Below, piece by piece: positions 2,955 through 5,280 of a stretch of DNA of 5,280 nucleotides. The translations under genes and the position numbers were made by a program. Numbering within the stretch: the stretch's first letter is position 1; each line of letters opens with the position of its first letter. The stretch is from Candidatus Zhuqueibacterota bacterium (GTDB taxonomy: Bacteria; SM23-31). The notes beneath the pieces were generated by a model. It did no database searches. It was not told the origin of the DNA and saw only the letters and a list, made by a program, of their open reading frames with translations. The stretch covers positions 1 through 5,280 of the forward strand of contig JADFON010000168.1 of assembly GCA_022562855.1 (NCBI GenBank), in the 5' to 3' direction.

Positions 2955-3049
2955 AAAAAAAATCCTGCACGAATGAGAACTACATTTTATTTCAAAGTTA
3001 TTATGCTGTTGAGAGCGTTTCATAATTGCCAAAGAATGTCAATATCAAC

Positions 3050-3153
3050 TGTCATACCGAACTTAGCCTGCCTGCCACTACGTGGCCCCTGTTTTTGGGG
3101 TTTCGGCATCTTTGAGCACAAAAACAGACCCTGAAACAAGTTCAGGGAGACGG
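3050..3153. repeat. Intergenic inverted-repeat element between mraZ and rsmH
   Basis: The two ends are inverted versions of one motif. The right arm has a perfect 7-bp hairpin, CCCTGAA-ACAAG-TTCAGGG (3129-3147). The left arm starts GTCATACCGAACTT (3051-3064) and resumes with GTTTCGGCATC (3100-3110); joined, these give CCGAA-CTTGT-TTCGG, the counterpart of the right arm. Outer ends GTCA and GAC also mirror each other. Elements of this type, with CCTGAACTTGTTTCAGG-like arms, are to my recollection common between genes in many environmental bacterial genomes. It probably accounts for much of the unusual distance between mraZ and rsmH and could put hairpins in the operon transcript. No open reading frame of note lies in it. 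Confidence 0.7.
3065..3099. repeat. Second palindromic repeat nested inside the mraZ-rsmH repeat element
   Basis: These 35 bp split the left arm of the surrounding element; taking them out joins CCGAACTT to GTTTCGG and restores a clean hairpin. The segment is itself structured: tandem GCCTGCCTGCC, then the stem GCCAC-TAC-GTGGC (3074-3086), then CCCC facing GGGG (3086-3089 and 3097-3100). CTGTTTTTG (3089-3097) is a perfect inverted copy of CAAAAACAG (3119-3127) in the centre of the host element, so part of it may derive from that element. No target-site duplication is visible. Confidence 0.5.
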
Positions 3154-3224
3154 AAAAATAATAATACAACAATCTTCTATTTTATATCGACCTCAATACG
3201 TCCTGTTTCCTTTTTTAATGAAGG

Positions 3225-4089: not shown

Positions 4090-5280
4090 TTAATCAATGT
4101 ATTCTGAGACGTCTTCCTGTACCATTAATTTTGCAATAACCTCGTCTGAAACAAAAAGTCCTTTCGCCGTTAATCGAATGTGGTCATTCTCACACAGCAA
4201 TAATTCAGACAAACGATCTTCTTCAAGGATCGATTCAACTTTTCCCGCAAGAGTCTCAGCCGGCTGTCTGCCGAATTGTTCACCAAAGCAACTCAAAGAC
4301 AACCCGCTCCGCATGCGCAGACCGAGCATTATTACCTCGTTCATTTGCTGAATCTTCGACAAAATTTCCTTGCCTTCAACGGGTAACTCACCGTTATCAA
4401 TAGTCTCGTAATATTTAGAAAAACTCTTTGTATTCCAGAAACGCGTTGTTCCGTCATACGCATGCGAAGACATGCCGAATCCAATGTACGGCTTGCGCTC
4501 CCAATAGTGCATATTGTGTTTCGATTCAAACCCGGGTTTTGCATAGTTTGAAAGTTCATAATGATTGTATCCCAAAGAGCCAAGGCGGTTACAGGCGATT
4601 TCAAACATATCGGTCGTGACATCATCGACCGGAAGAACCAACTCCCCGTTTTGTACCTGGCTGGTCATCCTGGTTCCTGCCTCAAGCATCAATGTGTACG
4701 CCGAAACATGTTCCGGTTCCATAATTCTCACGCTGTCAAGCGTTTCTTCCCAGCTTTTCAGGGTTTGTCCCGGTGTACCATACATGAAATCGACACTAAT
4801 ATTGTCAAATCCCGCTTCGCGCGCTGTTCGTACGGTTTCGGGACCTTCTTCAGCGGAATGATTTCTTTCGAGGGTCTTTAATTCGCCGGCATTTTGGGAC
4901 TGAATTCCAATTGACAGCCTGTTGATACCCGCTTCACGGTAAGTGTGCAGTTTGTCCTGTAACGCAGATCTAGGATTTACTTCTATGGTGATCTCAGCAT
5001 TCTCCAGGACATTAAATTCTCCATGGATTTTGTCCATTATATCGGCTATTGATTTCCCCGGTGCATAAGACGGGGTCCCGCCTCCGATGTAAACTGAACT
5101 TACATTTAATTTTTCCACGCCACGCGAGCGGTCACTATGTGATGATGCGTGGTTCACGCCACGGACATCGGCGGATTTCGCGAAAATATCTACCTCTTTT
5201 ATCAAATAAGAACAATATTGTACGATTTTTTCCTGTTCAAATCCTCCGGTTGTAAAAAAATCGCAATAGTTACACCAGTG
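4090..5280 (-). CDS. hemW: HemW-type radical SAM heme chaperone (formerly 'oxygen-independent coproporphyrinogen III oxidase-like'), 5' partial
   Basis: The visible part is 396 codons plus a TAA stop; the gene enters the window at the right edge in frame. The first residues read HWCNYCDF, the last two cysteines of the radical-SAM CxxxCxxC [4Fe-4S] motif; the first cysteine and the true start lie outside. A TTG at 5205 is not the start, because it lies after these cysteines. Next come GGGTPS (visible residues 66-71, SAM binding), EVNP (100-103), GINRLSIGIQS, DFMYGTPGQT and, near residue 255, HNMHYW. This last fits the HNxxYW motif that marks HemW rather than true HemN. A C-terminal winged-helix-like region (GLSLSCFGEQFG onward) completes the family layout. 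Family knowledge: HemW binds heme and delivers it to respiratory proteins in the cytoplasm/membrane; it is not proven to be a coproporphyrinogen dehydrogenase. The stretch between CDF and GGGTPS is about 18 residues longer than in E. coli HemW as I recall it, largely because of an insertion-like segment (separate entry). mraZ follows 421 bp downstream behind its own promoter, so the two are probably separate transcription units. Confidence 0.93.
   Translation of the reverse strand, partial: HWCNYCDFFTTGGFEQEKIVQYCSYLIKEVDIFAKSADVRGVNHASSHSDRSRGVEKLNVSSVYIGGGTPSYAPGKSIADIMDKIHGEFNVLENAEITIEVNPRSALQDKLHTYREAGINRLSIGIQSQNAGELKTLERNHSAEEGPETVRTAREAGFDNISVDFMYGTPGQTLKSWEETLDSVRIMEPEHVSAYTLMLEAGTRMTSQVQNGELVLPVDDVTTDMFEIACNRLGSLGYNHYELSNYAKPGFESKHNMHYWERKPYIGFGMSSHAYDGTTRFWNTKSFSKYYETIDNGELPVEGKEILSKIQQMNEVIMLGLRMRSGLSLSCFGEQFGRQPAETLAGKVESILEEDRLSELLLCENDHIRLTAKGLFVSDEVIAKLMVQEDVSEYID
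5116..5163 (-). repeat. In-frame GC-rich palindromic insertion inside hemW, flanked by 9-bp direct repeats
   Basis: CACGCCACG occurs at 5116-5124 and again at 5155-5163, exactly 39 bp (13 codons) apart. Both copies are read in the same frame, giving RGV...RGV in the protein with NHASSHSDRS between. The interior has nested symmetry: CCACGC (5115-5120) faces GCGTGG (5147-5152), TCAC (5132-5135) faces GTGA (5139-5142), and GCGTG/CACGC forms another small stem near 5147-5159. The segment is clearly more GC-rich (about 63% over 48 bp) than the flanking gene. Removing one 39-bp unit restores close to the usual spacing between the CysX2Cys and GGGTPS motifs of HemW. This resembles a small palindromic element inserted in frame with a target duplication, or a slippage duplication. 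The direct repeat is plain in the sequence; insertion is inference. Confidence 0.6.

Follow-up and report, generated by a model that had tools for sequence, protein, structure and literature searches.

A probable in-frame insertion of a small, nested hairpin repeat in hemW of Candidatus Zhuqueibacterota

Palindromic repeats lying in frame within conserved genes are best known from Rickettsia. The Rickettsia palindromic elements (RPEs) are short, dispersed palindromic repeats, located in frame in conserved protein genes and mostly tolerated in loops (Ogata et al. 2000, 2002, via PMC2229807, PMC10969869); those of the RPE-1 type measure 105-146 bp, and nearly half of their copies lie in genes. 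REPs and BIMEs are linked to RAYT transposases, for which a REP-rayt-REP unit has been defined (PMC2817692). GTAG and CGTC families of REPs have been described, and intragenic REPs are known from several species (PMC3733652). In fungal mitochondria, Allomyces has double-hairpin elements that carry no flanking duplications (Paquin et al. 2000, cited in PMC2800124). MITEs are about 100-200 bp long and have terminal inverted repeats, usually together with target duplications (PMC2229807). Here we describe a 48-bp segment of hemW from a sparsely sampled phylum (six genomes), contained in a window, the whole stretch of DNA analysed, of 5,280 nucleotides.

The hemW insert

The reading frame was assigned to hemW by NCBIfam TIGR00539 (hemN_rel/HemW), with 251.9 bits against a cut-off of 205.4. 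Its sense codons across the insert are GAT GTC CGT GGC GTG AAC CAC GCA TCA TCA CAT AGT GAC CGC TCG CGT GGC GTG GAA AAA. The insert occupies the loop that connects the first helix to the strand running into GGGTPS, and the alignment of HemW to the solved HemN structure (1olt) begins directly after it. A single-sequence AlphaFold model of the protein was poor (pLDDT 35).

Protein alignment revealed 16 extra residues, missing from HemW of all 17 other genomes compared, as had been predicted of relatives. This absence, a covariance-model match at 5115-5164, and a second copy of the same 48-bp composite on contig C204 form the basis on which the insert was delimited (Table 1). The closest relative, a member of the same family (L011, 56% identical), shows a gap of exactly 16 residues relative to the insert, and another HemW of that family (L010) is one residue shorter than L011. 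Without the 16 codons, HemW reads AKSADVEKLNVSSVYIGGGTPS, equal in length to ARSVDKRTVHVQSVYFGGGTPS. It takes the removal of 16 codons, rather than the 13 (39 bp) proposed in the original prediction, to bring HemW back to the length found in the closest relative; therefore, the insert comprises 48 bp. The nearest empty hemW site belongs to another genus, at 56% identity, and the insertion event is seen from that distance, not between close strains. HemW has presumably gained a hydrophilic 16-residue loop and is still functional, its function being judged from the intact frame and the conserved motifs only. We infer that the insert is neutral, translated, and retained in the protein.

Table 1. 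Features of the hemW region, in window coordinates
Feature	Position	Strand	Remarks
hemW	4090..5280	(-)	396 residues shown; 5' end truncated by the edge of contig C174, which stops at 5280
In-frame composite repeat insert, 48 bp = 16 codons (RGVNHASSHSDRSRGV, residues 40-55 of the shown ORF)	5115..5162	(-)	Ends uncertain by 1-2 bp
Outer 25-bp twin-hairpin unit, left part (A-B), GTGGCGTGAACCACGCATCA	5143..5162	(-)	RTGGCGYRAGCCATCCCTRACGGGA uninterrupted elsewhere
Core twin-hairpin unit, 23 bp, TCACATAGTGACCGCTCGCGTGG	5120..5142	(-)	Genome copies; exact insertion into a REP-pair linker
Outer unit, right end, CGTGG (family CGGGA)	5115..5119	(-)	Alignment with other filled copies
9-bp direct repeat, right copy	5116..5124	(-)	Straddles the core/outer-unit junction; element-internal
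9-bp direct repeat, left copy	5155..5163	(-)	Outer-unit start plus one flanking base
HemW peptide stretch spanning the loop insert, ...SADVRGVNHASSH...			

Copies, anatomy, and nesting of the repeat

A BLAST search of the genome with window positions 5100-5175 identified eight other places, the best matching at 83% over 52 bp (E 7.5e-9). When a profile was made from nine other copies, leaving out that in hemW, it detected the hemW segment with an E value of 5.2e-11, and the position-weight score of the segment was 52.8 bits, compared with a maximum of 11.3 in 100 shuffled windows. Pattern searches of the genome returned 15 places for a 29-base pattern and 24 for a 26-base pattern, with 0 in the backwards controls, while the 23-bp core occurs in about 27 copies in this 80%-complete genome and 0 times in its backwards control. 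The covariance model yielded 69 matches at E<=1, about 40 of them at E<0.005. The expectation of further copies in the host genome was thus borne out by BLAST, pattern, and covariance-model searches alike. The length at this position varies among HemW proteins, as would suit an ordinary variable loop with a coincidental likeness to the repeat. However, the leave-out score far above the shuffled windows and the 15-27 forward matches against 0 in the backwards controls rule that explanation out, leaving it next to no probability. Very probably, the 48-bp segment belongs to a dispersed DNA repeat that is lineage-specific and non-autonomous, one copy of which entered hemW in frame.

Searches of the phylum's five other genomes, two of them from the same family, and of 20 relatives returned no copy of the repeat, and Rfam gave no match for it. 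One exception was observed in a Candidatus Poribacteria MAG (JADFGN010000193.1; L054 2923-2976), where one composite copy matches exactly. It is the only strong match in that 7.3-Mb genome and has a similar context, CAAT-AC. This copy may reflect transfer, shared ancestry, or misbinning.

The hemW copy consists of a 25-bp outer unit filled with a 23-bp core, giving 20+23+5 = 48 bp. The outer unit contains the hairpins TGGC-loop-GCCA and TCCC-loop-GGGA, with the core inserted in the loop of the second; the core itself contains TCAC-loop-GTGA and CCAC-loop-GTGG. Uninterrupted by the core, the 25-bp unit RTGGCGYRAGCCATCCCTRACGGGA occurs 21 times elsewhere in the genome and 0 times in the backwards control, and its fold consists of two 4-bp hairpins (z -2.9). 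For the core, the covariance consensus is likewise two hairpins, and the minimum-energy fold of the lone 23-mer differs from it. The hemW copy, considered as either RNA or DNA, showed secondary structure not above that of shuffled sequence (z about 0). The palindromic character originally ascribed to it is therefore clear in the repeat family but does not extend to the folding of this copy, and for this reason we claim no RNA function.

For each unit, the genome has both occupied and empty sites, and their junctions are flush, with no target duplication. Outer units filled by the core and split at CCCTAA^CGGGA are located on contigs C66, C131, C390, and others. The nesting also occurs in reverse, with the 25-bp unit placed within the core before CGTGG or CGCGG (C67, C351, C474). 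In both directions, the guest occupies a hairpin loop of the host, immediately ahead of the last loop base. The linkers of REP pairs provide a further comparison: they are empty, with GAGCACAGATGTT joined to CGGGTCAGGG (GAGCACAGATGTT^CGGGTCAGGG, within GAGCACAGATGTT-CGGGTCAGGGACGACCCGAACTAC), on C58, C99, and several other contigs, and filled on C292, where GAGCACAGATGTT-TCACGTAGCGACCACTCACGTGG-CGGGTCAGGGACGACCCGAACTAC is read, flush and with nothing duplicated. The empty and filled linkers therefore indicate that the core is a discrete 23-bp unit that inserts flush. An apparent three-level nesting was also observed on C474 (L175, L195), in which the core holds the 25-bp unit and this in turn holds a CCCCGAAATGATAGGGG hairpin.

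As the original prediction stated, the 9-bp sequence CACGCCACG recurs exactly at a spacing of 39 bp, and both copies encode RGV in the minus-strand hemW frame. Such an exact direct repeat is what a classic MITE bounded by a 9-bp target-site duplication would leave. The two copies had been taken for flanks, but they are internal to the element, and other full-length copies are similar but non-identical at both places. On C204, for example, the same 48-bp arrangement lies between CCTC and CAATGACA and reads CGTGGCATG and CGCGGCGGG at these positions. The element also has no terminal inverted repeats of MITE length, and the REP linkers are empty or filled without duplication. Based on the flush junctions and the internal position of the 9-bp repeat, we rejected the MITE explanation, which is highly improbable.

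Other palindromic pieces were observed in the window. The spacer between rsmH and mraZ (3045-3165) contains repeat-like palindromic sequences (AGCCTGCCTGCCACTACGTGGCCCC...); 12-mers of this spacer are present in three or more other contigs as well. The spacer upstream of an ftsL-like ORF (1789-1850) contains a GC-rich pseudo-palindrome, CTTCGACGAGCC...GCTCAGTCGAGCC, which is unlike its surroundings and was not found in the other loci compared.

Copies in other genes and possible routes of spread

Insertion in frame has occurred repeatedly in this genome. A TPR protein on C85 carries the 25-bp unit in frame in antisense orientation (LPVRDGSRRG). A second in-frame insert in the same protein (L169 1925-1970) is a perfect palindrome, GGGGCGGTTCG-TCCCGAAAGGGA-CCACTCACGTGG-CGAACCGCCCC, with two hairpins at its tip; it folds as DNA into a three-way junction (z -5.1), and the second hairpin of the core is also present in it. 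Both inserts are missing from the homologues of three relatives, whose alignments have gaps of roughly 8 and 16 codons there. In-frame copies in conserved genes that are absent from relatives, as expected of a protein-coding palindromic repeat, are thus found in hemW and at the two C85 sites, which were the ones compared with relatives. Additionally, the unit lies in frame as DGVSRPSRD in a 361-aa protein on C367, and rplY (ribosomal protein L25, C24; L160 1501-1525) ends in the 25-bp unit, from which its final residues and stop codon come. Of the six frames of the 48-bp composite, two or three are free of stops, depending on the variant. The hemW copy has no stop in the frame used, and some composite variants have a stop in the frame that hemW uses.

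Most copies of the repeat are intergenic and few lie in genes, despite a coding share of about 84% (ORFs of 100 aa or more) in a sample of 12 readable contigs, all of 3 kb or more (133.9 kb). This distribution fits the purging of harmful gene insertions. Most ORFs overlapping the other copies were dismissed as spurious on inspection, being short or opposite real genes.

The genome also contains a REP/RAYT system. Three Y1 transposase genes were identified, and two of them exceed the NCBIfam RAYT cut-off of 80 (NF047646), with 121.2 bits on C347 and 110 bits on C119. The C347 gene (L110 1366-1866) lies between inverted GTAG-tagged palindromes, the REP-rayt-REP layout. GTAG-type palindromes, CGGGTCGTCYCTGACCCG, were found in at least 34 places, often forming inverted pairs with a spacing of 36 bp. 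The core is within or adjoining REP pairs on six contigs (C292, C175, C293, C131, C390, and C476).

The best reading is that the units are selfish, REP/RPE-like micro-hairpins, tolerated in the HemW loop. In this reading, the outer 25-bp unit would have been interrupted by the 23-bp core in the loop of its second hairpin, and the resulting 48-bp composite would have landed in frame in hemW, lengthening the loop before the GGGTPS strand. The element would have moved by a single-strand (HUH/Y1, RAYT-like) or a template-switching route.

One route would involve no transposase: the hairpins would stall the replication fork, and recombination or template switching would copy them into other hairpins and, now and then, into genes. 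The positions of the units in each other's loops and at the feet of REPs, their form as tiny hairpins throughout, the lack of target duplications, and the fact that no copy adjoins a transposase gene are all consistent with such copying. The exact 23- and 25-bp ends, however, recur at unrelated sites, suggesting a defined mobile unit, and RAYT genes and REPs are present in the genome. We regard this route as quite possible, at only somewhat less than an even chance. Alternatively, the units could be non-autonomous satellites of the REP/RAYT system, moved as single-stranded hairpins by a Y1 transposase. The two RAYT genes, with the inverted GTAG palindromes on C347, and the six contigs on which the core accompanies REP pairs point in this direction. 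Enzymes of the IS200/IS605 type produce no sizeable target duplications (PMC2817692), which fits the flush junctions, although template switching at hairpins fits them too. Against RAYT-driven movement, no GTAG tag was found at the ends of the hemW element, whereas the separate REPs of the genome do carry GTAG, and no hemW-type unit lies beside any of the three Y1 transposase genes. Movement by RAYT appears rather unlikely. The system lends itself to a clear test of the idea that RAYT transposases mobilize satellites that lack the REP tag.

With either route, we tentatively propose a self-nesting system of twin micro-hairpins. Its units of 23-25 bp would be among the smallest mobile DNA known; they would insert at a fixed loop position, just before CGGG or CGTGG, with no target duplication, through REP/RAYT or fork switching, and would repeatedly enter genes in frame, adding loops of 8-16 residues. 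The chances of this proposal holding in its entirety are distinctly below even.

Relation to known systems

Distinctive of this genome, relative to the systems described above, are units much smaller than RPEs and smaller than MITEs, their reciprocal nesting, and empty and filled sites that can be read directly. These features make it a usable model for the spread of hairpin repeats and for the gain of loops by proteins.

In behavior, the RPEs are the closest system. The likeness to them that was first noticed in hemW holds in this respect, as in-frame copies were found in further genes, and in both cases several conserved genes of one genome are affected. An RPE proper is about 100-150 bp long with long terminal inverted repeats, whereas the hemW insert is a 48-bp composite of 23- and 25-bp units, nested, with few copies in genes; this comparison is by description, not by sequence.

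In genomic setting, REPs and BIMEs are closest, being short hairpins of high copy number, mostly intergenic, and arranged in mosaic inverted pairs; in this genome, GTAG REP pairs adjoin the hemW-type element. A GTAG-tagged REP is a single imperfect palindrome of 20-40 bp with GTAG at its foot. In contrast, the hemW element bears neither a GTAG nor a CGTC tag; its building blocks are 4-bp twin hairpins, which insert into one another's loops. MITEs such as ERIC, RUP, and Correia are likewise small non-autonomous repeats, with open frames able to fuse to genes; unlike them, the units described here are smaller and have no terminal inverted repeats or target duplication.

In anatomy, the double-hairpin elements of Allomyces are the closest. 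They are mitochondrial, and the likeness is one of description rather than sequence. Both are compact twin hairpins that are present or absent between relatives and leave no target duplication, and some of the Allomyces elements lie in genes, like some of the units here, and are kept in transcripts. Two adjacent hairpins that behave as one mobile unit without target duplication, the features that define a double-hairpin element, are what we found in this genome.
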